This document shows, piece after piece, positions 25,114 to 55,163 of a stretch of 64,000 bases of DNA. The position numbers and the translations under genes are program-made. Origin of the DNA: Natrarchaeobaculum sulfurireducens (GTDB lineage: Archaea; Halobacteriota; Halobacteria; Halobacteriales; Natrialbaceae); the NCBI RefSeq assembly GCF_003430825.1, contig NZ_CP024047.1, positions 434,001 through 498,000 on the forward strand. The letters are read 5' to 3'. How positions within the stretch are numbered: the stretch's first letter is position 1; each line of letters starts with the position of its first letter. The notes beneath the pieces are model-generated. The model was not told the origin of the DNA. It saw nothing but the letters and a program-made list of their open reading frames with translations, and made no database searches.

Positions 25114-25829
25114 TCAGTCCGCGCCGACTGGACCGTCCGCAGTGGCCTCGGCGATCGACTGGCCGCGTTCGGTCTCGAGGATCGTGCCGGTGTTGAGCGC
25201 GATCAGGCCGAAGCCGACCTTGGTGAGCACGTCGAGGTAGCTGATCAGCATGATGTCGACCGTCGGGGTGATCATGCCGAGTCCAGGGGGGCCCAACAAC
25301 CAGATGACCGGATACACCGACCAGAGGATGACCGTAAGGTTTCGCAGGCTGGTAAACAGCGACGTGACGGCTGCTCCCTGCTCGGCAGCCCGGTCACTCA
25401 TCGGACCCAACAACAAGTAGAGCAAGCCGAGGTACACGATACCGGCGACGACGAACAGTCCGTACCCCAACCCGCCGGGGACGAGCGCGGCTGCGAAGCC
25501 GAGCACCATGACGGCCGTGTTGACGGCGATGACCACACCGAGTTCCCGACTGTCGCTCCCGGCGAGCAAGCCGAGGAACAGCAACAACAGCGGCGTCGTC
25601 AGGATCCAGTCGACGTACCGTGGCGTGAAGACGACGTTGTCGCCGACGGTCACCCAGCCGATCTCGAGAGCCATCATCGCGTACGCAACCGCAGCGATCA
25701 GACTGATCGACGCGAGGATCGCGTAGTACCGGCGGTAGACGCTCTCCGTGGAGATGCCACCCAAGACGAACGCGACCGTCCCCACGGCCATCCCGAGCGC
25801 ACCGAGCCAGAACAGCAGGGTTGGCTCGA

Positions 25830-25833
<4 letters not shown>
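25114..25833 (-). CDS. sopII: Sensory rhodopsin II (phoborhodopsin)
   Basis: Seven-helix retinal photoreceptor for blue-light avoidance, 239 residues. Numbering coincides with the Natronomonas protein: Arg72 and counter-ion Asp75 in [11 protein letters not shown], Phe86 where proton pumps have the donor Asp, Tyr174, Thr189, Asp193, Tyr199, Thr204 and Schiff-base Lys205 in [10 protein letters not shown]. The Tyr174/Thr204 pair and Tyr199 are those needed for signalling and transducer contact. Its ATG overlaps the htrII stop (ATGA), so receptor and transducer are co-translated. No other rhodopsin is present here. Confidence 0.96.
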
Positions 25834-27497
<1,664 letters not shown>

Positions 27498-27903
27498 GTA
27501 ATGTGATATCTGTTCAGGTATGTTAGTGGTGACGGCCAACTACGTGTAATCGATTTCTTTAGATACTTCCGAACGAGTTCCGTGGTTAGCCATATGATTC
27601 ATAACCTCGTTGATGAATGGAACAGTCGAGACGACAATCAGTCGTCGACCTGATGAATGTCCATTCCCCGTCTCTCCCTCGAGTGTCACGCGTTATCCGT
27701 CCCGTTGCCGACCGGTTTCCTCGGCCGGCTCACGATCAGTCGCAACGACGGCTGGTTGGGGCACGCCTCGGGTTCAGGGTTCACCGTCACCGTCCAGGTC
27801 GCCGTCCTGTCCCTGTGGCTGCTCGAGCGCCGCCACGAATCCTGTGCCTTGTGGCTCGAGCGGCTTCGAACCCGAACGGTACCGAGTCACGGGGGAATAC
27901 CCG
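27498..27903. promoter_or_regulatory. Divergent promoter region between htrII and blh
   Basis: A 406-bp spacer serving both transcripts. The part nearest htrII (27540-27610) is AT-rich and contains, on the minus strand, AAGTATCTAAAGAAATCG as a TATA candidate. The remainder (27610-27900) is GC-rich, in-frame with blh but Ser/Pro/Arg-rich, and shows no protein similarity I recognise. Shared control of receptor and retinal synthesis is plausible. Confidence 0.5.
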
Positions 27904-29636: not shown

Positions 29637-31190
29637 ATGCCGAACGACCATCCCCATGTCAGAACGACCGGCTCCGAGTTCGTAGCGACCGCCACAGACG
29701 CCCCACCGGACGCACGCGTTCCAATCGAGGTTCGGGTGACCGTCGACGATCCGTATCGCGCGTATCGTCGCGTCCGGACAGACCCCTCGGTCCACGGCGA
29801 TATGGGTGGCGAATCCGACAGCATGGGACCGACCGGTGTCTACCTCGAGACCACCGGCGGCCAGTCCGGCTGGGGCTACTTCGCCGTCGATCCGTTCACC
29901 AGCCTGCAGGTGGGCTCGACGCTCGAGCCCGTCGGTGACGTCGATCCCGCGCCGTCGCTGGCAGAACTGGATGGACTGCTCGAGCGTGAGACGCTCGTCC
30001 GTGGCGACTGTGACGTACCCTACCCCTGCGGGGCGTTCGGCTGGCTCTCCTACGACGTCGCTCGCGAACTCGAGACGCTGCCCGAGACGACCGTCGACGA
30101 CCGCGACCTCCCGCGTCTGCAGGTCGCCGCGTTCGACCGCGTCGCCGCCTGGGAGGAACCACGGGACGGCGAGACGACGCTGCGGATCACGGCCTGTCCC
30201 CGCGTCGGCGACGACCCTCACGCGGCGTACCAACGGGGCCGCGAGCGCGCCCTCGAGCTGGCTCGTGCGGCCAGGACCGGGGAGCCATCCATGCCAGCTC
30301 CCCCGGTCCGGGCGACCGACGCCACCTTCGAGAGCGACTGCTCGACGGCCGAGTTCGCAGAGCGCGTCCGCCGCGTCAAAGCGTACGTCCGCGACGGCGA
30401 CACCTTCCAGGCGAACGTCTCCCAACGACTCACCGCACCGGCTGCCGTCCACCCCGTCGCGGCCTTCGACGCGCTCCGTGCGGTGAATCCGGCGCCGTAC
30501 TCCGCGCTGCTCGAGTTTCCGGGGATCGACCTCGTCAGCGCCTCGCCGGAACTGTTGCTCGACGTCGAGGGCGACCGTTTGCTGACCGAACCGATCGCTG
30601 GCACCCGGCCGCGGGGCGAGACGCCCGCCGAAGACGACGCGCTCGAGGCTGACCTGCTCGATGACGAGAAAGAGCGGGCCGAACACGCGATGTTGGTCGA
30701 CTTAGAGCGAAACGACCTCGGGAAGGTCAGCGAGTACGGCAGCGTCGAGGTGACCGAGTACCGTCGGGTCGACCGCTACTCGGAGGTCATGCACCTCGTC
30801 TCGCTCGTCGAGGGGCGACTGCGTTCGGGCGAGGCCCTCGTCGACGCGATCGCCGCGGTGTTCCCCGGCGGGACGATCACCGGCGCGCCGAAACCCCGGA
30901 CGATGGAGATCATCGACGAGGTCGAACGGACGCGCCGCGGCCCTTACACCGGCTCGATCGGCGTCTTCGGCTTCGACGACCGGGCGACGCTCAACATCGT
31001 CATCCGGACGCTCGCTCGACGGGGTGAGCGGTACTCGTTGCGCGTCGGTGCCGGCATCGTCCACGACTCGGTGCCCGAACGCGAGTACGAAGAGACCCTC
31101 GACAAGGGCCGTGCGCTGGTCCGTGCGCTGGATGCAGCCCTCGGCGAACGGGCGGAACTCGCCGTCGCCGACGGCGGGGTGACCGACTGA
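29637..31190 (+). CDS. pabB: Aminodeoxychorismate/anthranilate synthase component I
   Basis: Chorismate-using synthase, 517 residues. The C-terminal catalytic domain shows [14 protein letters not shown], the [20 protein letters not shown] block, [38 protein letters not shown] and a terminal [17 protein letters not shown]. TrpE and PabB are hard to separate: the Ala in PIAGT is the TrpE-type residue, whereas Lys marks classic PabB; on the other hand the N-terminal tryptophan-binding LLES motif is absent (YLETT instead), arguing against feedback-regulated TrpE. Paired with a glutaminase subunit 76 bp downstream. Symbol is a preference, not proof. Confidence 0.65.
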
Positions 31191-31266: not shown

Positions 31267-31932
31267 ATGACGCAGATTCTGATCGTCGACAACTACGACT
31301 CCTTCGCGTACAACCTCGTCCAGTACGTCGGTGGGGCGATCGACGCTCCCTACGACGGCGAGGTACTCGTTCGGCGTAACGACGCCATCGACGTCGACGG
31401 CATCCGTCGACTCGACCCCGACGCGATCGTCGTCTCGCCTGGCCCCGGTACCCCCGCCGAGGCTGGCGTTTCGATTCCGATCTTTCGCGACCTCGAGTAC
31501 CCGACCCTCGGCGTCTGTCTGGGTCACCAGGCGCTCTGTGCGGCCGCCGGTGCGCCCGTCGGCTACGCACCACGAGTCGTTCACGGCAAGCCCTCGACGG
31601 TCACTCACGACGGAACCGGCATCTTCGAGGGGCTCCCGGACCCGTTCGAGGCTGGCCGCTACCACTCGCTGGCGGTCGACCGGGAGGACCTGCCGGCAGA
31701 ACTGCTCGAGACGGCCAGTACCGTCCTCACCGCCAGTAGCGAGCCAGGCGACACAGCCGAACCCGAGGCCACCAACGAAGTGGGCCAAGAAATCGTGATG
31801 GCCGTCCGCCACCGCGAGCGACCCCACGTCGGCGTGCAGTTTCACCCCGAGAGCATCCTCACCGGCACAGGAATGCACCTGATCGAGAACTTCGTCGACG
31901 CGGCCGCGACCGACGCCGTCGCCCGGTCGTAA
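31267..31932 (+). CDS. pabA: Glutamine amidotransferase component II (PabA/TrpG)
   Basis: Class I glutaminase supplying ammonia to the preceding synthase, 221 residues. Catalytic Cys84 lies in LGVCLGHQALC, the His-Glu pair in GVQFHPESILTG, and the oxyanion segment is SPGPGTPAEAG. An internal acidic insertion (ASSEPGDTAEPEATNEV) is unusual but close to the domain surface. It is 76 bp after component I on the same strand. No aminodeoxychorismate lyase follows, so whether the pair makes p-aminobenzoate or anthranilate is unresolved. Confidence 0.88.
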   Translation: MTQILIVDNYDSFAYNLVQYVGGAIDAPYDGEVLVRRNDAIDVDGIRRLDPDAIVVSPGPGTPAEAGVSIPIFRDLEYPTLGVCLGHQALCAAAGAPVGYAPRVVHGKPSTVTHDGTGIFEGLPDPFEAGRYHSLAVDREDLPAELLETASTVLTASSEPGDTAEPEATNEVGQEIVMAVRHRERPHVGVQFHPESILTGTGMHLIENFVDAAATDAVARS

Positions 31933-34486: not shown

Positions 34487-35863
34487 TCAGTCCGAGGCCT
34501 CTTTTCCGGCGTTGAGTTTGGCTTGTTCGCGGGCGCTCGGGTTGACCGACGGCTTGAACGGCACCTCAGAGACCTTGGCGTACACCGGCTCGCCAGGCTC
34601 TTCTGCGTACTCCTCTGGCAGGTGGACCTGGAATTCGGTCTCGATGTCGCCGTCGTAGACCTCCATCGGGTTGCCGTCGAGTTTTTCGGCCGGCACGAAC
34701 CCGAGTGCGAGGTTCGTCTCGAGTTCGGGGTTGTGCCACGGCGAGGTGACGTAGCCACACTCCTCGCCGGTGTCGGGGTCGGAGATGAGCCAGAAGTCCG
34801 GTGCGTAGTCACGGACCGGCTCGCCGGCCATCTTGAGTCCGACCATCTTGTGGACGAACGGGTACTCGCCCTCGTCGATCTGGGCTTTCTGGCGCTCGAG
34901 TGCTTCTTTCCCGATGTAGTCGGCGTCTTTGTCGTCGGGCACCTGGTAGGCGAGGTTGACCTGGAACGGCGAGGTTTCGTGGTCCATATCCTGCCCCCAC
35001 GAGAGGATGCCGGCGGCGATGCGTCGGTGGTGGGCCGGGGCGACCTGCATGCCGCCGTGGGCACGGACGGACTCGATGGCGGGGTCCCAAACGCGCTCGG
35101 CGTTCTTCGAGGCATCTTTGACGTAGATCTCGAAGCCTTTTTCGCCCGAGAAGCCGGTCTGGCTCACTAACACCGCCACGCCATCGATCTCTGCTTCCAT
35201 CAGACCGTAGTAGGGGATCTCGTCGACTTCTTCGCCGACGAGGTCGACCATCACGTCGACGGATTTGGGCCCCTGGATCTGGACCGGGGCGACGTCGATC
35301 TCGTCGATCTCGACGTCGAAGTCCATCCCGACGTTGACGCCCTGAAGCCACTGCATGAGCGTCGAATCCGAGATCGAGAACCAGAACTCGTCCTCGCCCG
35401 GCCGCAACAGGACGGGATCGTTGAGGATGCCGCCATCCTCGTTACAGAGGATGACGTACTTGCCGTGCATCGGTTCGATCTCGGTTGCATCACGGGTGAT
35501 GACGTAGTTCGTCAGCGCCTCAGCGTCCGGGCCTTTGACGCGGATCTGTCGCTCGACGGCGACGTCCCACAGGGTGACGTGATTGACGAGTGCGTCGTAC
35601 TCCTCCATCATCCCGCCCTCCTCGGGCTCTAACATCCCGCGTGGGTGGTAGACTCGGTTGTACACCGTTGCTCGCCAGGCACCGTTCTCGACGAACGACT
35701 TGTGGAAAAACGGTGATTTTCGCACTCGAGTCGAGACGAGCATCTCGATTCCGGGATCGCCGGACTGCCGCAGGTTTCGCGGCAGTACCCGGTCGGACTG
35801 GTCGACGCTCGGATAGTTCGGGTGGTCCTGACTCTCCGTCTGTGGCGGTTCGTTGCCAGACAT
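34487..35863 (-). CDS. DmdA/GcvT-like tetrahydrofolate methyltransferase
   Basis: 458 residues from ATG 35863 (MSGNEPPQTESQDHP). It resembles dimethylsulfoniopropionate demethylase DmdA more than glycine-cleavage T-protein: RVRKSPFF, TLWDVAVERQIRVKGPDAEAL, GGILNDPVLLRP, WFSISDSTLMQWLQGVNVGM, VAPVQIQGPKS, QTGFSGEKGFEIYV and GILSWGQDMDHETSPF all have counterparts there. Such enzymes move a methyl group from a sulfonium or quaternary amine to THF, giving 5-methyl-THF. Adjacent metF fits this. Substrate (glycine betaine, DMSP or another) cannot be decided from sequence; the nearby dimethylglycine dehydrogenase favours betaine. An alternative ATG at 35875 exists. Confidence 0.8.
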   Translation of the reverse strand: MSGNEPPQTESQDHPNYPSVDQSDRVLPRNLRQSGDPGIEMLVSTRVRKSPFFHKSFVENGAWRATVYNRVYHPRGMLEPEEGGMMEEYDALVNHVTLWDVAVERQIRVKGPDAEALTNYVITRDATEIEPMHGKYVILCNEDGGILNDPVLLRPGEDEFWFSISDSTLMQWLQGVNVGMDFDVEIDEIDVAPVQIQGPKSVDVMVDLVGEEVDEIPYYGLMEAEIDGVAVLVSQTGFSGEKGFEIYVKDASKNAERVWDPAIESVRAHGGMQVAPAHHRRIAAGILSWGQDMDHETSPFQVNLAYQVPDDKDADYIGKEALERQKAQIDEGEYPFVHKMVGLKMAGEPVRDYAPDFWLISDPDTGEECGYVTSPWHNPELETNLALGFVPAEKLDGNPMEVYDGDIETEFQVHLPEEYAEEPGEPVYAKVSEVPFKPSVNPSAREQAKLNAGKEASD

Positions 35864-35889
35864 TGACACCACCATGTCTTGCAGGGCAC

Positions 35890-36234: not shown

Positions 36235-37128
36235 GTGACTCACGTTATCGACGGGAACGCGGTAGCAGACCGGATTACCGACGGACTCGAGGCGTGTGTC
36301 GAGACGCTCGAGGCGGAGCAGGTAACGCCTGGACTGGCCACGGTGTTGATGAGCGACGATCCCGCGAGCGAGACGTACATTTCGATGAAACAGCAGGGGT
36401 GTGCGGACCTCGGTATCGAGAGCATCCACCGAGAGCTGGACCCGTCCGCGTCCGCCGACGACCTGTTCGAGATCGTCGCGGCGCTGAACGACGACCCCGA
36501 CGTCCACGGGATTCTGGTTCAGATGCCCGTTCCCGACCACGTCGATAGCACGAGGGTCCTCAGGACCATCGATCCGCTCAAGGACGTCGACGGCTTCCAC
36601 CCCGAGAACGTCGGTCGCCTCGTCGCGGGCGACCCGCGGTACAAACCCTGTACGCCCCACGGTATCCAGAAACTGCTCGAGGCGGCGGACGTCGATACCG
36701 AGGGCACGGACGCGGTGATCGTCGGCCGGTCAGACATCGTCGGCAAACCGATGGCGAACCTGCTAATCCAGAAGGCTCCCGGCGGCAACGCGACGGTAAC
36801 GGTCTGTCACTCCCGTACCGAGGACCTCGCCGCGAAGACCCGCGAGGCGGACATCGTGATCGCCGCGGCTGGCGTCCCCGAACTCGTCGACGGCTCGATG
36901 ATCGGTGACGGCGCCGTCGTGATCGACGTCGGCGTCAACCGCGTCGAGGTCGACACCGAGAAGGGCTACGAACTCGTCGGCGACGTCGAGTTCGAGAGCG
37001 CGATGGAGAACGCACGCACAATCACGCCCGTCCCTGGCGGCGTCGGCCCGATGACGATCGCGATGTTGCTGTACAACACGGTCAAAGCCACAGCCATCCA
37101 GGAGGACGTCTCCGTCGACCTTCCGTGA
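36235..37128 (+). CDS. folD: Methylene-THF dehydrogenase / methenyl-THF cyclohydrolase
   Basis: Bifunctional enzyme oxidising 5,10-methylene-THF to 10-formyl-THF, 297 residues. Catalytic lysine lies in SETYISMKQQGC; signature one is the PVPDHVDSTRVLRTIDPLKDV region with DGFHPENVGRL, the NADP fold begins VIVGRSDIVGKPMANLL, and signature two is PVPGGVGPMTIAMLLYN. It starts with GTG at 36235, preceded by GTGAGG. Divergent from the DmdA-like gene, it supplies the step after MetF and dimethylglycine dehydrogenase in one-carbon oxidation. Confidence 0.95.
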   Translation: MTHVIDGNAVADRITDGLEACVETLEAEQVTPGLATVLMSDDPASETYISMKQQGCADLGIESIHRELDPSASADDLFEIVAALNDDPDVHGILVQMPVPDHVDSTRVLRTIDPLKDVDGFHPENVGRLVAGDPRYKPCTPHGIQKLLEAADVDTEGTDAVIVGRSDIVGKPMANLLIQKAPGGNATVTVCHSRTEDLAAKTREADIVIAAAGVPELVDGSMIGDGAVVIDVGVNRVEVDTEKGYELVGDVEFESAMENARTITPVPGGVGPMTIAMLLYNTVKATAIQEDVSVDLP

Positions 37129-39566: not shown

Positions 39567-41363
39567 ATGACAGACGAAGGTAAACGCGGTATACAAGGTG
39601 AACTGTTCCACGCGGAGACGGATCGAGAACCGGGAGACAACAACTGGCAAGGATACGGATTCGACATCAATCCACCCGTCTTTCTCATTGCAGGTGGGCT
39701 GATTATTCTGTTTATTATCCTCTCGCTTGCGTTTCCGGACCAGGCGGGAGCGATCTACCAGGATACACGGATCGCGATATCCGACTACTTCGACTGGCTG
39801 TTCATCCTGGCAGCGAACATCTTCATCATCTTCATGGTCTATCTCGCCATTAGCAAGTACGGCGCGATCCGGCTCGGTGGCGTCGACGGCGAGAAGGAGT
39901 TCAGCGACATTTCGTGGATCGCGATGCTGTTCAGTGCGGGGATGGGGATCGGCCTGATGTTCTTCGGCGTCGCCGAGCCAGTCTATCACCTCTTCGATCC
40001 GCATCTGGGTGCCGAAGCGGGCACCGACGCTGCAGCGGAGGTCGGAATGGCGGTATCGCTGTTCCACTGGGGCTTCCATCCGTGGGCGATATACGCGCTG
40101 GTCGCGCTCGGACTCGCGTTTTTCTCGTATAACCGGGGGCTCCCGCTTACGTTTCGGTCGGTCTTCTACCCGGTGCTTGGCGAACGGATCTACGGCTGGC
40201 CGGGACACGTCATCGACATCTTCACCGTGTTCGCGACGCTGTTCGGCCTCGTGACCTCGCTCGGCCTCGGCGCGTTACAGATCAATGCCGGGTTGACGTT
40301 CGTGGGTGACGAAGTGGCCGCGTTCCCCGCCGTCCCCGACTCGGTCTGGGTCGCCGTCGGGATCGTCACGGTCGTCACGGGCCTGGCCATCATCTCGGTC
40401 TACCTCGGCCTCGATAAGGGGATCAGACGTCTCAGCAACCTGAACCTGACGCTGATGCTCGTGCTTCTGGCATCGGTGTTCATCCTCGGGCCAACGCTGT
40501 TTATCCTCGGTGCGCTTCCACAGGGGATCGGCGCGTACATCGGGAGTTTCTTCGAGCTGTCGTTCTTCGGCAACTCGTTCGACAACCACTACTTCCAGGG
40601 CTCGGAGTTCTACGGTCCGGGTGGCGACGGTGAAGGCGGATTCCTCGTCGACTGGACGGTGTTCTACTGGGCCTGGTGGATCTCCTGGTCGCCGTTCGTC
40701 GGGATGTTCATCGCACGCATCTCGAAAGGGCGTACCATCCGCGAGTTCGTCGGTGGCGTCCTGTTGATCCCCGTCGTGTTCTCGTTCGCCTGGTTCGCGG
40801 CGATGGGCGGCACCGCGCTCAACTTCGAGTTGAACGAAGCAACCGCCGGTGCGATCAGCGGGCCGACGTTCGAGACCGGCGAGGAACTCGCGATGTTCGC
40901 GATGTTCGATCTGATGCCCGGCACCGTGGTCCTGTCAGTGCTCGCGATCATCCTCGTTACGACGTTCTTCGTGACGTCTTCGGACTCTGGCTCGCTCGTC
41001 CTCGAGCACCTGAGCACCGGCGGGAAACACGAAACGCCGGCGACCGGTCGGGTCTTCTGGGCGGCCTCCGAAGGGCTCGTCGCGTCCACGCTGTTGATCG
41101 CCGGCGGTGACGCGGCAGTCGACGCACTTCAGGCGGCAGCAATCGCCAGCGGCCTCCCGTTCGCGGTGATCCTGCTGTTTATGATCTACGCCGTGATGCA
41201 GGGGCTCAAAAAGGAGTACCGGATCCTCCAGTCGAACGAGTTCGAGGAGCTGATCGACGACCTCGAGGACCAGGGTGAGATCGTCGTCACGACCGAGACT
41301 GGCGACCTGGTGACCGAAGTCAAGACCAGAGATGACAGGGTGATCAACGTCGGTAGCGACTGA
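39567..41363 (+). CDS. BCCT-family transporter (betaine/carnitine/choline), copy 1
   Basis: Secondary transporter for quaternary ammonium solutes, 598 residues and about twelve transmembrane helices. The family signature DWTVFYWAWWISWSPFVGMF lies near residue 370 and supplies the aromatic box for the trimethylammonium group; GMGIGLMFFGVAEPVYH near residue 130 gives the other substrate-site segment. The C-terminal 50 residues are a hydrophilic cytoplasmic tail. It has a separate leader with a Shine-Dalgarno site. Together with the second BCCT gene at 44.9 kb and downstream demethylation genes, uptake of glycine betaine or a relative is likely. Confidence 0.92.
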   Translation: MTDEGKRGIQGELFHAETDREPGDNNWQGYGFDINPPVFLIAGGLIILFIILSLAFPDQAGAIYQDTRIAISDYFDWLFILAANIFIIFMVYLAISKYGAIRLGGVDGEKEFSDISWIAMLFSAGMGIGLMFFGVAEPVYHLFDPHLGAEAGTDAAAEVGMAVSLFHWGFHPWAIYALVALGLAFFSYNRGLPLTFRSVFYPVLGERIYGWPGHVIDIFTVFATLFGLVTSLGLGALQINAGLTFVGDEVAAFPAVPDSVWVAVGIVTVVTGLAIISVYLGLDKGIRRLSNLNLTLMLVLLASVFILGPTLFILGALPQGIGAYIGSFFELSFFGNSFDNHYFQGSEFYGPGGDGEGGFLVDWTVFYWAWWISWSPFVGMFIARISKGRTIREFVGGVLLIPVVFSFAWFAAMGGTALNFELNEATAGAISGPTFETGEELAMFAMFDLMPGTVVLSVLAIILVTTFFVTSSDSGSLVLEHLSTGGKHETPATGRVFWAASEGLVASTLLIAGGDAAVDALQAAAIASGLPFAVILLFMIYAVMQGLKKEYRILQSNEFEELIDDLEDQGEIVVTTETGDLVTEVKTRDDRVINVGSD

Positions 41364-41742: not shown

Positions 41743-42168
41743 CTAGGGTGCGCGAACGACTGTAACCGGCTTCGGACACATCCGCACGACTTTCTCGGCG
41801 TTCGATCCGAGGTATTTCTCGATCGTCCCGCGGCCCCGTTCGGCGACGATCACGCTGTCGACGTCTTCGTCCGTGGCGTAATCGACGATCTCCTGTGCAA
41901 TATTCCCCGTCTTGACTACGCCGACACCCTCGAGGCCGCGTTCTTCGGCCTGGTCGACGACGTTCCTGACGACTCCCTCTCCGAACTCCCGATACTCGTC
42001 CATCTCGCTTTCGCTTACACCGACCGTGAGGATGTACGCCGCTTTCGTTTCGACGACGTATATCACGTGCACCGTGGCCCCGAACACGTCCGCGAGATCG
42101 AGACCGTGCTCGACTGCACGCGCTGCCTTGTCACTTCCATCAGTCGCGATCAGTATGTTGTCTTGCAT
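41743..42168 (-). CDS. UspA-family universal stress protein 1
   Basis: 141-residue alpha/beta nucleotide-binding-type stress protein: MQDNILIATDGSDKAARAVE, VVETKAAYILTVG, EIVDYATDEDVDSVIVAERG and GTIEKYLGSNAEKVVR. The G-2x-G-9x-G-S ATP loop is one residue shorter than the canonical spacing and its first Gly is Ala/Glu-like, so ATP binding is uncertain. It is a close paralogue of the gene at 42883 and shares a promoter motif with it. Such genes often accompany transporters in haloarchaea. Confidence 0.92.
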   Translation of the reverse strand: MQDNILIATDGSDKAARAVEHGLDLADVFGATVHVIYVVETKAAYILTVGVSESEMDEYREFGEGVVRNVVDQAEERGLEGVGVVKTGNIAQEIVDYATDEDVDSVIVAERGRGTIEKYLGSNAEKVVRMCPKPVTVVRAP

Positions 42169-42198
42169 GACCGTTGCCCTAGCGGACTATTCGAAAGA

Positions 42199-42210
42199 CG
42201 GTAGCATATA
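42199..42210 (-). promoter_or_regulatory. Promoter element of usp1
   Basis: Plus-strand CGGTAGCATATA; read on the minus strand as TATATGCTACCG it is a TATA box about 39 nt before the start, giving a leader of about 12 nt. The same 12-mer with one change occurs at the second usp gene. Confidence 0.55.
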
Positions 42211-42423
42211 TCTTGGGACCTTCTATCACACACTGTCGGATGGAGCCGCCATCGAGCGCCAGGCGACTCGTGTGAATCGGTGTCTGCCCCACTGAGTCGC
42301 GATCGATCGTCGAGTTCGCCGACATCGAGGTACCGGATCGCCTCTGGCGGTCCGCGATATCGGGCTCCCGGCCCGGTCGCCGGGGTTCGCGGTCGGGCCG
42401 GAACTGACGTCCAGTACTCCGTC

Positions 42424-42579
42424 TCAATCGACGTTGATCTCACGAGCGTAAATGGCGAACGCGACGAACGTGAGCAAGGTCCCGGCAAAGAAGTAATTTC
42501 CCGCGACGATGGCCATGAGACTCAGACCGGCCAGCGCCACCGCGAGGATCGTAGCGACGGTTGCGACGAGTTGGGACAT
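42424..42579 (-). CDS. 51-residue two-helix membrane protein
   Basis: Starts at ATG 42579 and reads MSQLVATVATILAVALAGLS, then a second hydrophobic helix (YFFAGTLLTFVAFAIYA) and ends REINVD. Two helices joined by a Gly-Asn turn, with no other motif. It is transcribed leftward, lying between the two usp genes with another small membrane protein; a role as accessory subunit to the transporters or channel nearby is speculation. Confidence 0.7.
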   Translation of the reverse strand: MSQLVATVATILAVALAGLSLMAIVAGNYFFAGTLLTFVAFAIYAREINVD

Positions 42580-42617
42580 GTTTCACACCACGTCGACGAC
42601 GGAAGTTATACGTAACG

Positions 42618-42788
42618 TCAGGCAGCGGACTCGTTCCACTCGGCGGCCAACCCGACGACGCCGAGGACGACCGCGACGGCTCCGATACCTGCGGTGAGTG
42701 TCTCCTCACCGACCAACCCGCTGACGAGGACGGCGAGTCCGCCGAGCAGCAAGAAGGCCCGAAGGACCGTCCGAGCGTTCCAGTGCAT
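42618..42788 (-). CDS. 56-residue two-helix membrane protein
   Basis: Starts at ATG 42788 and reads MHWNARTVLRAFLLLGGLAV, followed by LVSGLVGEETLT and a second hydrophobic helix (IGAVAVVLGVVGLAAE), ending WNESAA. It lies 38 bp upstream of the 51-residue protein on the same strand, probably cotranscribed. Function unknown. Confidence 0.7.
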   Translation of the reverse strand: MHWNARTVLRAFLLLGGLAVLVSGLVGEETLTAGIGAVAVVLGVVGLAAEWNESAA

Positions 42789-42882
42789 GGTCAGAGACGC
42801 CCAGCATCGTACGTGACTGCCGTGCTCGTCGCGAGTTGCCTGTCAGGATCACCTGGCCGTCCTCGAGTTGCTGGCCGACCAC

Positions 42883-43308
42883 TCATCCCTCGATGACGAC
42901 CGTCGCCGTGTCCTCGGCCATCCGAATAACGTTCGATGCGGTGCTTCCGACGTGTCTGTCGATCGCATCGTGGCCCTGTTTGCCCACCAGGATGGCGTCG
43001 ATGTCGTTGCGTTCGGCGTAGTCGACGATCTCCTCTGCCGGACGACCAGTCTTGAGCACACCCGTGGCCTCGAGACCGCGATCCCCCGCCCGTTCGACGA
43101 TGTCCGTGACGATCTCTTCACCGTACTCCCTGTAGGCTTCTAGCTCGTCGTCGGAGAGCCCTACGGTCAAAATGTAGGTGGCTTTCGTTTCGACGACGTA
43201 CAGTGCGTGTACCTTTGCGTCCATTGCCTCGGCGATTTGGAGGCCATACTCGACGCATGGCTCGGCCTCGTCGCTTCCGTCGGTTGCGATCAAAACGTTG
43301 TCGTACAT
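42883..43308 (-). CDS. UspA-family universal stress protein 2
   Basis: 141 residues, same length as usp1 and alignable throughout: MYDNVLIATDGSDEAEPCVE, VVETKATYILTVGLSDDELE, EIVDYAERNDIDAILVGKQG and RHVGSTASNVIRMAED. The loop GKQG-8x-GS is one residue short of the usual ATP motif. Tandem duplication with divergence is the likely origin of the pair. Divergent from the K+ channel gene. Confidence 0.92.
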   Translation of the reverse strand: MYDNVLIATDGSDEAEPCVEYGLQIAEAMDAKVHALYVVETKATYILTVGLSDDELEAYREYGEEIVTDIVERAGDRGLEATGVLKTGRPAEEIVDYAERNDIDAILVGKQGHDAIDRHVGSTASNVIRMAEDTATVVIEG

Positions 43309-43343
43309 CTGTGTTCGTCCTCGTCTTCGCCGGAGTATCGACG

Positions 43344-43356
43344 CGATAGCATATAG
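43344..43356 (-). promoter_or_regulatory. Promoter element of usp2
   Basis: Plus-strand CGATAGCATATAG, equivalent to the usp1 element; on the minus strand CTATATGCTATCG, about 44 nt before the start. The conservation beyond the TATA box itself hints at shared control. Confidence 0.55.
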
Positions 43357-43466
43357 TCCTTGCTTCTGTTACCATATCGCATGGCTCCCCGCCGGTGATC
43401 GCCGATCCGGGTGGGACGGGACCGGGCGGCGGTACTACTTTGCTGTCCCGGCCCGACTAGTCGTGC

Positions 43467-44693
43467 GTGGTGGCAGATCACTCGGACTCTTCGGAGCCTG
43501 CGATCGATCGGTTGTTCTCCCACAGCGAGACGGTTCGTCTCGTCAACTGGCGAGCGCTTTCCGGGGCGAAGTCGGCGGTCATCCTGTGTGGGTTCGTCGC
43601 CGTGCTCTCGTTCGTCACCGGACTATCGAATCTCGCTCAGCCGACGGTCGCCGACGACGGTCCTCTCGCGGCGGTTCTGCCTGGCGGACCGAACGTCGTT
43701 CCATTTACCGGCGTCCTGTTGGCGTTCGTCCTCGGGGCACTCGTGTTCGGACTTGGGCGCCGAAAGCGCCTCGCCTGGTATCTCACGGTACTCACGCTCC
43801 CACTCACCTCGCTGTTGCCCTTGACGGCGTTCCAGACGACGGACGTTCCGCTTTTGCTCTTGGTTCTTCTCACCCTCCCGCTGTTGCTCGTCAACCGGGA
43901 CGCGTTCGATCGGCGGCTCGAACTCTCCTCGCTCCAGATCGCCTCACTGTCCTCGATCGTGGGTGTCGTGTTGTACGGCACGATCGGTACCTACGCTATT
44001 CGTGATCAGTTCACCGGTATCGACACCTGGGGCGATTCAGTCTACTACGTCGTCGTGACGATCGCGACAGTTGGTTACGGGGACATCACGCCGCTGACGA
44101 CCGGGGCGAAGTGGTTCTCGCTGTCGATCATCCTCTTCGGAACCGGCGCGTTCACGGTTGCTATCGGGGCCTTGATCGTGCCGGCGATCGAGAAACGAAT
44201 GGCCACCGTATTCGGAAACATGACCCCATCAGAACTCACCTTACTCGAGGACCACGTGCTGGTCCTCGGGTACAGCGACATGACGGACTCCCTGCTCGAG
44301 GAACTCGATGACGAAACCGACCTCGTGATCGTCACACCCGACGCCGACGCCGCAGCCACGCTAACCGAGCGAGAGGTCAACGTTCTCACCGACGATCCAA
44401 CACACGAAGCGACGCTTCGCGACGCCAAGATCGGCGACGCTGCAGGCGTGGTCGTCGCGACACACGACGACGCCAACGACGTCCTTGCCGTCCTCGCGGC
44501 CCGGAAGTTGAATCCCGACATCCGCATCGTCGCCGCAGCGACCGACGGACAGCACGTCGACAAACTCGAGGCGGTCGGCGCGGACGAAGTCATCAGCCCG
44601 GTCGAGATGGCCGGCCGGCTCCTCGGTCGGTCGATCCTCGAGAAGCCGTCCACCGAGTCGCTGTTCGGGACGACTGACGACGACGCGTCGTGA
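43467..44693 (+). CDS. Potassium channel with cytoplasmic RCK/TrkA-N domain
   Basis: 408 residues starting at one of two tandem GTG codons (43467 or 43470). Four or five N-terminal hydrophobic segments precede a pore helix and the selectivity filter TIATVGYGDITPLT (filter near residue 195-200), then an RCK-type Rossmann domain beginning DHVLVLGYSDMTDSLLEEL with VIVTPDADAAATL and DDANDVLAVLAARKLNPDIR. Potassium-selective conduction gated by a nucleotide is expected. The extra N-terminal helices make it longer than two-TM channels. It fits an osmotic-stress island with the BCCT and Usp genes. Confidence 0.92.
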   Translation: MVADHSDSSEPAIDRLFSHSETVRLVNWRALSGAKSAVILCGFVAVLSFVTGLSNLAQPTVADDGPLAAVLPGGPNVVPFTGVLLAFVLGALVFGLGRRKRLAWYLTVLTLPLTSLLPLTAFQTTDVPLLLLVLLTLPLLLVNRDAFDRRLELSSLQIASLSSIVGVVLYGTIGTYAIRDQFTGIDTWGDSVYYVVVTIATVGYGDITPLTTGAKWFSLSIILFGTGAFTVAIGALIVPAIEKRMATVFGNMTPSELTLLEDHVLVLGYSDMTDSLLEELDDETDLVIVTPDADAAATLTEREVNVLTDDPTHEATLRDAKIGDAAGVVVATHDDANDVLAVLAARKLNPDIRIVAAATDGQHVDKLEAVGADEVISPVEMAGRLLGRSILEKPSTESLFGTTDDDAS

Positions 44694-44938: not shown

Positions 44939-46795
44939 ATGGGCATTCAGGGAGTCAGTGCCGGTGAACACGCCCTCCGAAAGCTCGTGGTCCCGCTCTG
45001 TCTCCTGTCGGGGATCGTCGTCGTTTCGGGCTTTTTCTTCCCCGAAATCGTCGGCGAAACCATCTCTGGCCGGGCGTGGCTCGTTACGTCTCTCGTCTTT
45101 TTCGCCTCCGGACTGAGCTACCTCGCGGTCTTACCTACCGACGTCGACGAGACGGCACACACCTTCGACCCGGAGTATCTGCTGCGTGTCCGTCGGCTCG
45201 AGCTGGCGGACACTGCCAAGGGGTTTTTGACCCGTCAGGATCCGATCACCTTCGGCGTCACGGTCGTCGCGTTCACGCTCTTTTTCGTTGGGCAGCTGTT
45301 GATTCCGTCGGAGACGATCGCTGCCATCGATGCCGCTCAGGCTACAGTGACCACGTACGGCGGGTTGGTGTTCGCCGGCGTCATGATGCTCGCCGTCTTA
45401 TTCTGTCTGTTCTTGCTGGCTGGGCCGTGGGGGTCGGTGAAACTCGGTGGCCCGGATGCCGAACCGTCGTATACGTATCCCGTCTACTTCACCATGTTTT
45501 TTACAGCCGGCATCGCCGCCGGAATCGTCTTCTGGGGACCGGCGGAGGCGCTGTTTCATTACGAGACGCCGCCGACGTACTTCGACGTCGATCCGGGGTC
45601 GGAGGGTGCTGGCGAGGCGGCGCTCACCTACGCACTGTTCCACTGGGGGTTCACCACCTGGAGCGCCTACATCGCTCTCGGCGTTCCGATCGCGTACTAC
45701 GTCTACCAGCGCGGTGCGCCGTTGCGGGTTTCGGCAATCTTGACCCCGTTTCTGGGCAGCGAGAACCTCGACTCGGCGTGGTGTCGGCTCGTCGACGTCC
45801 TCGCCGTCTTCGCAACGATCGGCGGAATCGCCACCTCCATCGCACTCGTCAGCGAACAGTTTCTCGTCGGGGTCGACTTCCAGTGGGACATGACCTTCGA
45901 CACGCTCGGGTCGGTCCTGTTCGTCGGCGGCCTGACGTTCATCTTCGTCGTCTCGGCCCAGAGCGGCGTTCACCGTGGGATCAGACGGATCGCGGCCGTC
46001 AACGTCGTCCTCTTCGGGCTGTTCGCAGCGCTGTTTCTCGCCGTCGCTCCGCGAACCGTCGTCCTCGAGAGCAGCTCGAGTGCGGTCGGTAGCTACGCCG
46101 CGAACGTCGTTCCGATGAGCCTTCATCTGGGCGATGGGCTGGTCGCCGACGAGTGGGTCGCCGAGTGGACGATCTGGAACTGGGCGTGGTGGCTCTCGTG
46201 GGCGCCGTTCGCTGGCCTCTTTCTGGCGGCGCTCTCTCGTGGTCGGCGAATCAGAACGGTCGTCCTGACGGGGTTCGTCGCGACGTCGCTGGCGACGATG
46301 GTCTGGTTTCTCCTGTTGGGTTCCACTGCCGTACACCTCCAGCAGACGAGTGCCGTAGCCGTTCTCGCGGCGGTCGACGCCTACGGCGGCTCCGAGGCCG
46401 TCGCCGGCTTTCCGGTGTTCGAGACGTTCGCGATCGGCCAGCTCCTCATCTTCGTCTTCCTGGCGCTGATCGTCGTCTTCATGACGACTTCTGCTGACAC
46501 CTCTACGCTCGTCGTGGCGGTGCTGGCGACGAAACGTGACTTCGCTCCGACGACCGGCGCGATTATCTTCTGGGGAGGATTTCAGGGGCTCGTCGCCGTC
46601 TCCGTGCTCGTCACCGACAGCGCGGAAGTCCTGCAGGCGATGGCCGTCTTGACCGGCGGTCCGTTCGCGCTGGTGGTCTGTCTCGCACTGGTCGGCCTCG
46701 TCGGAACGCTTCTCACACACGACGCCGATCGCTCCTCGTCCGCCGAGCCCTCGGGAGAGGGTTCGGAGAAGGACCACGAGAGTACCGACCGGTGA
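44939..46795 (+). CDS. BCCT-family transporter, copy 2
   Basis: 618 residues, about twelve helices. The signature EWTIWNWAWWLSWAPFAGLF and the GIAAGIVFWGPAEALFHYE segment mark the BCCT substrate site, while overall sequence differs greatly from copy 1, so different substrates or affinities are likely. The first 90 residues include an extra pair of hydrophobic segments (LVVPLCLLSGIVVVSGFFF and LVTSLVFFASGLSYLAVL). GATTTA centred about 28 nt before ATG 44939 suggests a leaderless transcript. The short C-terminal tail is charged. Confidence 0.92.
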   Translation: MGIQGVSAGEHALRKLVVPLCLLSGIVVVSGFFFPEIVGETISGRAWLVTSLVFFASGLSYLAVLPTDVDETAHTFDPEYLLRVRRLELADTAKGFLTRQDPITFGVTVVAFTLFFVGQLLIPSETIAAIDAAQATVTTYGGLVFAGVMMLAVLFCLFLLAGPWGSVKLGGPDAEPSYTYPVYFTMFFTAGIAAGIVFWGPAEALFHYETPPTYFDVDPGSEGAGEAALTYALFHWGFTTWSAYIALGVPIAYYVYQRGAPLRVSAILTPFLGSENLDSAWCRLVDVLAVFATIGGIATSIALVSEQFLVGVDFQWDMTFDTLGSVLFVGGLTFIFVVSAQSGVHRGIRRIAAVNVVLFGLFAALFLAVAPRTVVLESSSSAVGSYAANVVPMSLHLGDGLVADEWVAEWTIWNWAWWLSWAPFAGLFLAALSRGRRIRTVVLTGFVATSLATMVWFLLLGSTAVHLQQTSAVAVLAAVDAYGGSEAVAGFPVFETFAIGQLLIFVFLALIVVFMTTSADTSTLVVAVLATKRDFAPTTGAIIFWGGFQGLVAVSVLVTDSAEVLQAMAVLTGGPFALVVCLALVGLVGTLLTHDADRSSSAEPSGEGSEKDHESTDR

Positions 46796-47395: not shown

Positions 47396-49540
47396 TCAGT
47401 CGTCGGCCGGGGCGTCGTCCGCCGGTTCGATACCGACCTCGATCTCGGCGGCCGCCGCCTTGTACTCGGGGATCTTCGCGCGCTCGTCGAGTACGTCGTT
47501 CGTGAGTTTGTTCGCCGAGGAGGCCGCGAAGTGCGGTGTCGTCCACACCGAGCCTTCCGTGATGTCCTCGGTGACCTGTGCCTCGACGGTGATCTCACCG
47601 CGACGGGACTTGAGGACGATCTCCTGGCCGTCCTCGATGCCGTAGCGCTCGGCGTCGTTCGGGTGGACGTCGACGAAGTTCTCCGGCGTCTGGCGGTTCA
47701 GCGTCGGCGACCGACGGCTCATCGTCCCGGTGTTGTAGTGTTCTTCGAGCCGAGCGGTCGTCAGGATCAGTGGGTACTCGTCGTCGGGCGTCTCTTTGGG
47801 CGGCTGGTGGGTGACGCCGATGATCCGTCCGAGGCCGTTCTCCGTGTCGAACTCGTCTTCGTAGAGGAAGGGATCGCCCTCGTCGCCGGGCTCGTAGCAG
47901 GGCCAGTGGAGCCCTTCCTCGCCGAGTAGCTCGTAGGTCATCCCGTGGTAGATCGGACAGACCTCCCGGAGTTCCTCGAAGACCGCTTCGGGGCCATCGA
48001 AGTCGAATCCCGAATCGAACAGTCGCGTTCCGATCTCGGTGAGGATCTCGAGGTCGTGTTTCGTGTTCTCGTGAACCTTCTCGACGCCGCGCATCAACTG
48101 GACGCGCCGGTCGGTGTTCGTGACGGTGCCGCCGCGTTCGGCCCAGGTCGTCGCCGGGAGGATCACGTCGGCGTACTGGCTCGTCTCGGTCGGGAAGATG
48201 TCCTGGACGACGACGAACTCGAGTTCCTGAATCCGCTCGGCGACGCGGTTCGCGTCGGGTTCGCTCATCACGGGGTTTTCGCCCATCACGTACAGCCCTT
48301 TCACCGAGTCGCCGAACTCGTGGGAGAGTTCGACGTTAGTGAGGCCGGGTTCGTCGGGGACCTCGAAGCCCCAGACCTCCTCGACGGACTCGCGGGCCTC
48401 GTCGTCGTCGACGAGCTGGTAGCCCGGCAGGACGTTCGGCATCGCACCGACGTCACAGGTCCCCTGAACGTTGTTCTGGCCGCGCAGCGGGTTGACCCCG
48501 GTACCGGCTCGCCCGACGTTGCCGGTGAGCAACGCGAGGTTGATCTCGTTCTGGACGTTGTCGACGCCGCAGGCGTGTTGGCTCATCCCCATCCCGGTGA
48601 AGATGGCCGCGTTGTCCGCTTCGGCGTACTTCTCGGCGGCCAGCTCGATCTCCTCGAGCGAGAGGCCACACTCCTCCGCTGCGGCTTCCTTGTCGAAGTC
48701 CTCGAGTGTCTCTTTTAAGTGTTCGAACCCTTCGGTTCGCGCCTCGATGAACTCCTCGTCGATCCAGCCCGCCTCGGGATCTTCCTCGTGGTTCTCGAGG
48801 ATCGTCTTGATGACGACGTTTAGCAGCGGGATGTCGGTCCCCGGCTTCAACTGGAGGTGCTGGTGGCGGTCGGTGTCGTCGATGTCGAACGACCGCGTCG
48901 TCTTGTTCGCGTGGGGGTCGACCTGGATGACGGTCGCCCCGTCTAACACTGCCTGGCGGAAGTACTGGCTGTTCGCGATCGGGTGTTGCTCGCCCGGATT
49001 GGCCCCCTGGATCCAGAAGAGGTCGGCCTCCTCGCGAAGGTCGGCCATGCTGTTGGTCATCGCGCCCGCGCCGAGGCTCGTCCGCAGCGCCCAGACGGTC
49101 GAGGCGTGACACATCCGCGTACAGTTGTCGACGTTGTTCGTGCCCAGCCGACGGGCGAGTTTCTGGAGGAGGTAGTTCTCCTCGTTCATCGCCTTCGAAC
49201 AGCCATAAAAGCCCAGTGCGTCGGCGCTGTACTCGTCGCGAATGCGCTCGAGTTCGTCGACGATCAGCTCGTAGGCCTCCTCCCAGGAGGCCTCGCGAAA
49301 CTCGCCGTCGTCTTTGATCAGCGGGTCGGTGAGCCGATCCTCGTGGTCGACGACCTCCGTCGCCGCACCGCCTTTGATGCAGATCCGGCCCTCGTTGACG
49401 GGCGCGTCACCCCACGGCATGAACTGTACGTCCCCCGGTTCGTCGCCCTGTTTGACCTGAATTCCACAGCCGACACCACAGTACGGACAGATGGTCTTGA
49501 CTGGTTCGGACTCCGGATCATCGGTCGACATCGAGATCAC
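47396..49540 (-). CDS. fdhA: Formate dehydrogenase alpha subunit (molybdopterin oxidoreductase)
   Basis: 714 residues. N-terminal [4Fe-4S] binding motif CPYCGVGCGIQVKQ with GRICIKG, followed by bis-MGD oxidoreductase domains: EASWEEAYELIVDEL, YGCSKAMNEENYLLQKLARR, a metal-ligand Cys in NCTRMCHASTVW, then ANPGEQHPIANSQYF, ATTWAERGGTVTNTDRR and the C-terminal VDVHPNDAERYGIEDGQE. This matches cytoplasmic formate dehydrogenase catalytic subunits; no Tat signal is visible. An alternative start at 49531 is equally possible. In this setting it would oxidise formate from the THF pathway to CO2. No partner subunit, FdhD or cofactor gene lies in the window. Confidence 0.85.
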   Translation of the reverse strand: MISMSTDDPESEPVKTICPYCGVGCGIQVKQGDEPGDVQFMPWGDAPVNEGRICIKGGAATEVVDHEDRLTDPLIKDDGEFREASWEEAYELIVDELERIRDEYSADALGFYGCSKAMNEENYLLQKLARRLGTNNVDNCTRMCHASTVWALRTSLGAGAMTNSMADLREEADLFWIQGANPGEQHPIANSQYFRQAVLDGATVIQVDPHANKTTRSFDIDDTDRHQHLQLKPGTDIPLLNVVIKTILENHEEDPEAGWIDEEFIEARTEGFEHLKETLEDFDKEAAAEECGLSLEEIELAAEKYAEADNAAIFTGMGMSQHACGVDNVQNEINLALLTGNVGRAGTGVNPLRGQNNVQGTCDVGAMPNVLPGYQLVDDDEARESVEEVWGFEVPDEPGLTNVELSHEFGDSVKGLYVMGENPVMSEPDANRVAERIQELEFVVVQDIFPTETSQYADVILPATTWAERGGTVTNTDRRVQLMRGVEKVHENTKHDLEILTEIGTRLFDSGFDFDGPEAVFEELREVCPIYHGMTYELLGEEGLHWPCYEPGDEGDPFLYEDEFDTENGLGRIIGVTHQPPKETPDDEYPLILTTARLEEHYNTGTMSRRSPTLNRQTPENFVDVHPNDAERYGIEDGQEIVLKSRRGEITVEAQVTEDITEGSVWTTPHFAASSANKLTNDVLDERAKIPEYKAAAAEIEVGIEPADDAPADD

Positions 49541-50308: not shown

Positions 50309-52021
50309 TCAGAAGAGCCCGGAGATGCTCCCGTCGGAGCGCAGTTCCATGTTCGCGGCCGCCGGTTCCGAGGGGAGGCCGGGGAGCGTCAGCACGTCGG
50401 CCGTGAGCACCACCAGGAAGCCCGCGCCCGCCGAGGGGTAGATCTCGTTGATCTCGAGCGTCCAGTCTTCGGGGACGCCCTTCTGGCTCGCGTCGTCGCT
50501 CAGCGAGTGGAACGTCTTCGAGATGCAGATCGGGACGTCGTCGAAACCGAGGTCGGTGAGCCGTTCGATGTCGGCTCTGGCGTCGCTGTGGAACTCGACG
50601 CCGTCGGCGCCGTAGATCTCGGTCGCGACCGTCTCGATCTTCTCGTCGATCGGGGCCTCGAGGTCGTAGAGCGGCTCGAACGACGACTCGGACTCGGCGG
50701 CGTCGATCAGCTTCTCGGCGAGGTCGATCCCGCCCTCGCCCCCGTCGGCGAACACCGTCGACTCGGCCGCGGGGACGCCGAGGTCCTCCTCGCAGTGGTC
50801 GATGACGGCCTCGATCTCGGCGTCGGTGTCCTGTGGGAAGCGGTTGACGGCGACGACGACCGGGACGCCGAACTGCTCGAGGTTGCGGACGTGTTTGTCG
50901 AGATTCTCGAGGCCGTCGTAGACGGCGTCGACGTCTTCGTCCTCGAGGGCGTCGACGTCCGGCGGCCACATGTCCTGGCCGTGGTATTTGAGCGCCCGGA
51001 CGGAGGCGACGATCGTCACCGCATCTGGTTCGACGTCGCCGAATCGGGAGACGATGTTCATGAACTTCTCGGCACCCAGATCGGAGCCGAAGCCGGCCTC
51101 GGTGACGAGGTACTCGGAGAGGTGGGCGGCGACCTCGTCGGCGATCAGCGAGTTGGTCCCGTGGGCGATGTTCGCGAACGGGCCGCCGTGGACGAACGCC
51201 GGCGTTCCCTCGATCGTCTGGACGACGTTCGGCTTCAGCGCGTCTTTCAGGAGAATCGCGGCGGCGTCGGTCGCGCCGATGTCGTCCGCGGTGATCGGCT
51301 CGCCGTCCTCGTTGTAGGCGACGATGATCCGGCCGATGCGTTCTTTGAGGTCGTCGATGCCGTCGGCGAGACAGAGAACGGCCATCAGCTCGGAGGCCGC
51401 AGTGAGGATGAAGCCGTCCTCACGGGGAACGCCCGTCACCTCGCCGCCGAGCCCGACGACGGTCTCACGGAGGACGCGATCGTTCATGTCGATCGCCCGC
51501 GGCCAGTTGATCCAGTTGACCGCGATGTCCAGCTCGTTGCCCTGCTTGATGTGGTTGTCGAGCATCGTCGCGATCAGGTTGTGCGCCGACGTGAGCGCGT
51601 GCAGGTCGCCCGTAAAGTGGAGGTTGATGTCCTCCATCGGCAGTACCTGCGAGTAGCCGCCGCCTGCGGCCCCGCCTTTGACGCCGAACACCGGCCCGAG
51701 CGACGGCTCACGAACGGCGACGAGTGCTTCTTTCCCGACCTGGTTGAGCGCCTGACCAAGGCCGACCGTCGTCACCGTTTTCCCTTCGCCCAGCGGCGTC
51801 GGCGTCATCCCGGTGACGAGGATGGTCTTCCCGTCCGCGTCTCGTTCCTCGCGAACGCGTTCGATCGCCTCGAGTTCGACTTTGGCTTTCGTCTCGCCGA
51901 CCAGCTTGAGATCGGCTTCGGTGAGGCCGAAGGGTTCGACGACGTCGACGATGTGATTCGTCTCGACGGACTGTGCGATCTCGTAGTCTGAGGGGATCGA
52001 CTGGTCGTCTGCGGGTGGCAT
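50309..52021 (-). CDS. fhs: Formate--tetrahydrofolate ligase
   Basis: ATP-dependent interconversion of formate + THF and 10-formyl-THF, 570 residues. The ATP loop TPTPLGEGKTVTTVGL near residue 70, FGVKGGAAGGGYSQVLPMEDINLHFTGD, HGTNSLIADEVA and the C-terminal GFLVVLTADVLTLPGLP segment are family hallmarks. It is rarer in archaea than in bacteria. In a catabolic direction it would conserve ATP while releasing formate for the adjacent formate dehydrogenase (inference). An ACTTATC element about 27 nt upstream suggests a leaderless mRNA. Confidence 0.96.
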   Translation of the reverse strand: MPPADDQSIPSDYEIAQSVETNHIVDVVEPFGLTEADLKLVGETKAKVELEAIERVREERDADGKTILVTGMTPTPLGEGKTVTTVGLGQALNQVGKEALVAVREPSLGPVFGVKGGAAGGGYSQVLPMEDINLHFTGDLHALTSAHNLIATMLDNHIKQGNELDIAVNWINWPRAIDMNDRVLRETVVGLGGEVTGVPREDGFILTAASELMAVLCLADGIDDLKERIGRIIVAYNEDGEPITADDIGATDAAAILLKDALKPNVVQTIEGTPAFVHGGPFANIAHGTNSLIADEVAAHLSEYLVTEAGFGSDLGAEKFMNIVSRFGDVEPDAVTIVASVRALKYHGQDMWPPDVDALEDEDVDAVYDGLENLDKHVRNLEQFGVPVVVAVNRFPQDTDAEIEAVIDHCEEDLGVPAAESTVFADGGEGGIDLAEKLIDAAESESSFEPLYDLEAPIDEKIETVATEIYGADGVEFHSDARADIERLTDLGFDDVPICISKTFHSLSDDASQKGVPEDWTLEINEIYPSAGAGFLVVLTADVLTLPGLPSEPAAANMELRSDGSISGLF

Positions 52022-52210
52022 ACGGGTACGTTTTCGAGAGTCGGTGATAAGTGTTGACGCACCTATAGCTCACCGGATACGACGAGTTTCCGGGCCAACT
52101 CGAGTCGACGCGTACCGTGTGGACCAGGATCGGCTTCGACGACACCGCGCTCGACTCACAGTTCCTCTCAGAAAGCTGAGTGGCTGTGGAACGGGCGCAT
52201 TCGACGCGAG

Positions 52211-52218
52211 TTTTATTG
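52211..52218 (+). promoter_or_regulatory. TATA-like box of folCP
   Basis: TTTTATTG centred 28 nt before ATG 52242, the classic leaderless spacing; it also argues that the gene begins at 52242 and not at an upstream in-frame codon. Confidence 0.6.
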
Positions 52219-52241
52219 ATCGACGTGTGATCTGTTCGCGC

Positions 52242-55067: not shown

Positions 55068-55163
55068 ATGACACTATACGGTAACGTGCTGAGACTGCAG
55101 ACCGGTATCGACACTGTGACTGAAGCGAAACGACCATCCCACGTAGAGGGTGATCGACGATGA
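55068..55163 (+). CDS. 31-codon upstream open reading frame (possible leader peptide)
   Basis: ATG 55068 opens MTLYGNVLRLQTGIDTVTEA and the frame ends at TGA 55161-55163, overlapping the ATG of the dehydrogenase gene as ATGA. With the promoter placed by its TATA box, this frame would begin at the very 5' end of the mRNA. Translation of it could therefore deliver ribosomes to the large gene. It may be only a coupling device; no protein similarity is recognisable. Confidence 0.4.
   Translation: MTLYGNVLRLQTGIDTVTEAKRPSHVEGDRR

Follow-up and report, generated by a model that had tools for sequence, protein, structure and literature searches.

The DmdA-like gene at 34487-35875 (minus strand) of our window, the whole stretch of 64,000 nucleotides of Natrarchaeobaculum sulfurireducens DNA that was analysed, is predicted to encode a glycine betaine:tetrahydrofolate (THF) methyltransferase. 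Judging from sequence and genome context, the protein most likely works like the DMSP demethylase DmdA, is not DmdA itself, and acts on glycine betaine. We regard it as quite probable that a single enzyme, independent of O2 and free of corrinoid, performs this reaction and passes its methyl-THF to an MTHFR working in reverse. The initial annotation left the substrate undecided between DMSP and betaine; the genome evidence favours glycine betaine and disfavours DMSP. On balance, it seems likely that this is a fourth route for the first step of betaine use, in which one enzyme of the GCV_T family moves the methyl group directly from a quaternary ammonium to THF without oxygen, corrinoid or homocysteine, that haloarchaea exchange it for a Rieske oxygenase or for a corrinoid-dependent MttB system in front of a conserved island of dimethylglycine and folate oxidation, and that the DmdA-like gene with its dedicated catabolic MTHFR forms a module shared with Actinobacteria.

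The longest frame of the gene encodes 462 amino acids, and 35863, the end given by the initial annotation, is a likelier start than 35875 because the orthologs begin at residue 5 of this frame. The protein matches GCV_T (PF01571) with 141.1 bits against a cut-off of 25.6, while its C-terminal barrel (PF08669, 24.4 bits) stays slightly below the cut-off of 25.9. The blocks WDVAVERQ, GGILNDPV, IQGPKS, GFEIYV and LSWGQDM, claimed as a mark of DmdA, are all found in the claimed order, but only WDVAVERQ and NDP, which replaces the DD of GcvT, discriminate, since IQGPKS and GQDM also occur in GcvT. Similarly, the protein is indeed longer than T-proteins, but this is due for the most part to ~45 residues forming an N-terminal tail rather than to the C-terminal segment that had been proposed; in the alignment, the C-terminus carries a small insertion followed by ~20 tail residues. 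Both tails are predicted to be disordered (residues 1-49 and 441-462, pLDDT <50) in an AlphaFold model with mean pLDDT of 76.2 and pTM of 0.79. The closest solved structure is DmdA 3tfh (E 4.5e-43), with the T-protein 1woo near it (1.2e-40). The top fold match of the model is also 3tfh (TM 0.92 by target length, rmsd 2.2), followed by the T-protein 1wos (TM 0.90), so that the fold alone cannot separate DmdA from T-protein.

The window is a folate/betaine island with genes on both strands around the DmdA-like gene. The adjacent metF gene named in the initial annotation (MTHFR, PF02219; 33418-34284) is confirmed; it lies on the same strand, 202 bp downstream, and its product is predicted to oxidise 5-methyl-THF. 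On the plus strand follow FolD, the methylene-THF dehydrogenase/cyclohydrolase (36235-37128; 547 bits, cut-off 477), a threonine/serine ammonia-lyase predicted to convert serine to pyruvate (TIGR01127; 37244-38467, start codon picked by eye), a BCCT betaine/choline/carnitine transporter (39567-41363) and a second BCCT-like transporter under the TIGR00842 cut-off (44939-46795). Between the two transporters (41743-44693) lie two universal stress protein-like genes and a potassium-channel-like gene, named by sequence. The minus strand then carries a formate dehydrogenase alpha subunit (47396-49540; 738 bits, cut-off 666) and a formate-THF ligase (50309-52021; 808 bits, cut-off 652). Back on the plus strand are an ORF (52044-54779) which we take to be folylpolyglutamate synthase/dihydropteroate synthase-like, its match in locus L036 being annotated as folP, and a dimethylglycine oxidase/dehydrogenase-type (DMGDH-type) protein with DAO, FAO_M and GCV_T domains (55160-57694), which among PDB entries is most similar to N,N-dimethylglycine oxidase 1pj5 (E 2.5e-142). 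They are followed by the beta (57861-58634, named by sequence and position) and alpha (58631-59605) subunits of electron transfer flavoprotein (ETF), also on the plus strand. At lower coordinates than the MTHFR gene, a plus-strand chorismate-binding enzyme of the PabB/TrpE type (29637-31190) adjoins a PabA/TrpG-like ORF (31267-31932). At 25114-27539, a rhodopsin-like membrane protein and an acidic transducer-like protein look like a sensory rhodopsin/transducer pair.

A compact island is found on a plasmid of Haladaptatus salinisoli, with two FolD-type genes, two chorismate-enzyme components, RidA, formate dehydrogenase, formate-THF ligase, folP, the DmdA-like gene, glyA, MTHFR, two DMGDH-type genes, ilvA and BCCT. 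On plasmid pNG700 of Haloarcula marismortui, the DmdA-like gene is accompanied by MTHFR, two DMGDH-type genes, a Rieske oxygenase, ilvA and BCCT. In Haloarcula hispanica, too, an ortholog is located on a plasmid.

Starting from the observed sequence, fold class, clade, gene neighbourhood and co-occurrence, we infer the substrate, the direction and every catalytic step of the pathway as follows. The DmdA-like enzyme would move one of the methyl groups on the quaternary nitrogen of glycine betaine to N5 of THF. The products would be dimethylglycine and 5-methyl-THF, and the chemistry would be of the redox-neutral type by which DmdA transfers a methyl group from DMSP to THF (PMC5395565). The adjacent MTHFR would run oxidatively, from 5-methyl-THF to 5,10-methylene-THF. 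One or more enzymes of the dimethylglycine oxidase type would, with ETF, oxidise dimethylglycine and then sarcosine, yielding more methylene-THF. The C1 units would then go to CO2 via FolD, formate-THF ligase (run for ATP) and formate dehydrogenase. Finally, glycine and methylene-THF may give serine (GlyA) and then pyruvate (IlvA), by a route that has been described (PMC12093977).

To get insights into the partners of the gene, we searched 242 Halobacteria genomes, drawn evenly from the larger group; in many of them, scoring for homology was limited to the 6-10 best candidates of a first look. Orthologs were defined by ~77% identity or more, the next tier being paralogs at 65-69% and then GcvT at <=34%, and by this definition 52 of the 242 genomes have an ortholog of the DmdA-like protein. 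A DMGDH-type protein (PF16350) is present in 78 of the 242, comprising all 52 genomes with the ortholog versus 26 of the 190 others. The two genes are <30 kb apart in 46 of the 52 genomes (<10 kb in 31), >100 kb apart on the same contig in four, and on different contigs in two. Strong orthologs of the window MTHFR occur in 54 of the 242 genomes, that is, in all 52 with the DmdA-like ortholog and in two more; none of the 26 DMGDH genomes lacking the ortholog has an MTHFR of the window type. Fisher p values for these co-occurrences (1e-33 and 5e-51) ignore the relatedness of the genomes. Among the genera that are variable for the ortholog, MTHFR tracks the DmdA-like gene in 7/7 (sign test, p 0.016) and DMGDH does so in 6/7; in the seventh genus (g47), the genomes without the DmdA-like gene keep DMGDH and have a Rieske gene. 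Within ~9 kb around the ortholog (with the window taken whole and two loci shorter), MTHFR is found in 40, DMGDH in 31, BCCT in 20 and FolD in 13 of the 52 genomes. This pattern of MTHFR is as predicted, because a Rieske route gives formaldehyde and needs no MTHFR, whereas a THF methyltransferase gives methyl-THF and needs one. Thus, adjacency and co-occurrence across genomes both support the coupling of the DmdA-like protein to MTHFR that the initial annotation had suggested.

The two additional genomes with the window-type MTHFR have other gene contents. In L225, a gene for a LigM/DesA-type THF O-demethylase, another kind of methyl-THF maker, is located ~500 bp from the MTHFR gene; its product reaches 480.6 bits to the DesA model, below the cut-off of 800. 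This haloarchaeal gene for an aromatic O-demethylase-type protein (L225:7300-8715) stands beside MTHFR, PurU-like, FolD and folate genes, and the cluster suggests THF-dependent O-demethylation in haloarchaea. In L224, a PurU-like gene, FolD and folate genes are near MTHFR, and no GCV_T-type gene was matched within the 20 kb of that locus.

The genomes that keep DMGDH were then compared for the genes that could supply its substrate. There are three described systems for the first step of betaine use, GbcAB, Bhmt and Mtg, and the passages presenting them mention neither GcvT nor DmdA (PMC12478193). Among the 78 DMGDH genomes, 44 have only the DmdA-like gene, 24 have only a Rieske gene (<=40 kb from DMGDH), eight have both and two have neither. 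The DMGDH-linked Rieske protein is inferred from its sequence to be GbcA-like: for the one on pNG700, the best curated model is GbcA, although its 132 bits fall far short of the cut-off (670), and the best PDB match is carnitine monooxygenase (E 3.6e-42). Since 24 of the 26 ortholog-less DMGDH genomes have such a linked Rieske gene, the DmdA-like and Rieske genes seem to fill one slot. In addition, six ortholog genomes have an MTTB gene; in the one whose locus was inspected, that of a 2.2-Mb haloarchaeon, it stands within a cluster of DMGDH, ETF, FolD, MTHFR, formate dehydrogenase and Fhs with MtrH-like and RACo-like genes (L226:581-19767), and these corrinoid genes are apparently an alternative betaine entry step. 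Judging from their distributions, the DmdA-like, Rieske and MttB genes seem to provide three interchangeable entries into a single downstream island.

In the genome of N. sulfurireducens itself (99.98% complete), no match was found to PF00848 (Ring_hydroxyl_A), PF06253 (MTTB) or PF02574 (S-methyl_trans), to which the enzymes of the three known first steps belong. Moreover, 32 of the 52 ortholog genomes, all keeping DMGDH, have no match anywhere to PF00848 and MTTB, so that no known betaine entry step is left there without the DmdA-like protein (for the Bhmt family, the search covered our own genome). On the other side, an MTTB protein is present in six and a DMGDH-linked Rieske gene in eight of the 52, and nine ortholog genomes have PF00848 matches located away from DMGDH. 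Where a Rieske gene or MTTB coexists (14/52), the ortholog may duplicate their function or use a different methyl donor. These 14 genomes, together with the varied operons without DMGDH in which bacterial relatives lie and with haloarchaeal paralogs placed mostly away from betaine genes, would fit a demethylase for a different quaternary amine (carnitine, proline betaine, choline or similar), with another system taking care of betaine. We consider this rather unlikely, in view of the 32 genomes that keep DMGDH without a PF00848 or MTTB match and because, to our knowledge, dimethylglycine is expected as a product only from glycine betaine.

By its sequence, the window protein is a member of the DmdA side of the GCV_T family, but not DmdA proper. 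Its best curated model is the NCBIfam DMSP demethylase (NF009133), with 233.7 bits against a cut-off of 410; GcvT models rank after it and are likewise under their cut-offs (TIGR00528, 135.8 bits against 235.85). In a maximum-likelihood tree of 57 rows, sampled at random from 172 collected haloarchaeal and bacterial rows with the divergent L004 row omitted and containing some long branches, the haloarchaeal proteins form one clade (support 100/100), separate from the clades of DmdA (99/99), of a large group of proteobacterial DmdA-like proteins (99/97), of GcvT (97/86) and of DMGDH C-termini (100/99). An earlier tree had 72 rows, sampled at random from the same 172. AU tests rejected a single clade of the haloarchaeal rows with GcvT (p 1.79e-05) as well as one with the four DmdA rows (p 0.000436). 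WDVAVERQ and NDP occur in the haloarchaeal proteins as they do in DmdA and its bacterial relatives; GcvT shows FDVSH and DD instead. The THF-side residues of DmdA are named in a study treating DmdA and non-DmdA homologs with a calibration on Halobacteriales, whose passages on these proteins name no betaine function (PMC7487153); by our own mapping of positions, these residues are present in the window protein, as are the fold and the NDP motif. Phe242 of the window protein was tried and dropped as a marker for DMSP: the DmdAs aligned here have Trp or Tyr at this position (Tyr in the annotated Phaeobacter DMSP demethylase) and the bacterial relatives vary, so that it is not diagnostic.

The same similarity raises the possibility of a true DMSP demethylase, with the BCCT carriers, which can transport DMSP, importing its substrate; both the best curated model and the best structure and fold match are indeed DmdA. 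Against it stand the score far under the cut-off, the AU test and the constant partnership of the ortholog with the dimethylglycine enzyme. Moreover, no DmdB/C/D-like gene was found at E 1e-8 in the 51 other ortholog loci, and the only candidate in the window is an acyl-CoA ligase 28 kb from the DmdA-like gene. We therefore reject the identity as DmdA proper and hold DMSP to be an improbable substrate. A T-protein paralog of the glycine cleavage system, which the common GCV_T domain and THF pocket and the annotation of the ortholog in Haloarcula records would allow, is extremely improbable and was rejected, as the initial annotation had it, by the AU test, the curated-model scores, the motifs and the absence of gcvP and gcvH from all 63 loci under queries that do recover the GcvP and GcvH of our genome, where the GcvT, GcvH and GcvP genes lie ~0.8 Mb from the DmdA-like gene. 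Neither of the two findings that the initial annotation named as refuting it, a position inside GcvT and a gcvH/gcvP linkage, was observed.

Relatives outside the ortholog group were also collected. Bacterial relatives are found in an operon of Lrp, DmdA-like protein, OsmC, enoyl-CoA hydratase and acyl-CoA synthetase in roseobacters or in PurU/MTHFR/FolD clusters, and no DMGDH-type match was found in the flanks of the best 80 of them. These other operons without DMGDH suggest that the wider family is not betaine-specific, and they do not help to assign the substrate. The roseobacter operon is conserved in many genomes (L037:9318-14049, L108:7322-12121, L109-L188), and related proteins also occur in Pelagibacteraceae and SAR86. 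Phage and plasmid collections yielded further relatives, with no experimentally tested betaine enzyme among them. Of the 52 ortholog genomes, 13 have a second haloarchaeal DmdA-like paralog with ~63-69% identity to the window protein, which was also found on a Haloarcula plasmid; NDF replaces NDP in it, and it is mostly distant from betaine genes (L210-L221, near 9 kb each; L040:10028-11395; L086, near 11 kb).

The sister of the haloarchaeal clade in the 57-row tree (support 99/98) is one actinobacterial-looking protein with 49% identity to the window protein (L189). An MTHFR gene lies directly downstream, its product 34% identical to the window MTHFR; within the 29 kb of this locus, no DMGDH, BCCT or other betaine gene was matched. 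The record (MT835505.1) is labelled Bacteriophage sp. from human faeces in GenBank, though its ORFs look actinobacterial-chromosomal and not phage.

With DmdA (Pelagibacter 3tfh; Phaeobacter L104; NF009133), the window protein shares the fold, the THF-side residues, WDVAVERQ, NDP and the proposed methyl transfer to THF, but it differs in its separate clade, its score below the cut-off, and its place beside a dimethylglycine oxidase and MTHFR with no dmdBCD. The overall reaction that we propose, from the betaine methyl to THF, is that of MtgB/MtgC with MtgA or MtgD (PMC12478193), but the latter systems are multi-protein and dependent on cobalamin/corrinoid, and the MTTB family is absent from our genome. 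GbcAB and Bhmt perform the same pathway step from betaine to dimethylglycine (PMC12478193), but GbcAB requires O2 and yields formaldehyde, Bhmt methylates homocysteine, and neither family is in this genome. LigM/DesA and Dmt O-demethylases transfer methyl groups to THF by enzymes of the aminomethyltransferase family (PMC9404685), but they act on aromatic methyl ethers, and the window protein reaches only 35.2 bits to LigM with a TM of ~0.6.

BCCT carriers near dimethylglycine oxidase genes were reported in four haloarchaea with the suggestion that betaine is used, in a passage which names no enzyme for the first demethylation (Anderson, 2011; PMC3102087). The same source states that betaine failed to improve the growth of H. 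walsbyi and to support that of H. utahensis, which would count against the betaine reading if the two species carry the DmdA-like gene. We found no report of a betaine demethylase of the DmdA/GcvT family in haloarchaea within the open-licence literature, which is weak proof of absence.

In saline waters, glycine betaine is one of the major osmolytes. Our study names a candidate for its first demethylation in 52 of the 242 sampled species. If this is true, the DmdA side of the family would extend beyond sulfonium compounds to substrates with a quaternary ammonium group, and DmdA-like genes found in brines should not be taken to stand for DMSP demethylation. Moreover, the first step of betaine use would then proceed without oxygen or vitamin B12, by a route so far undescribed.
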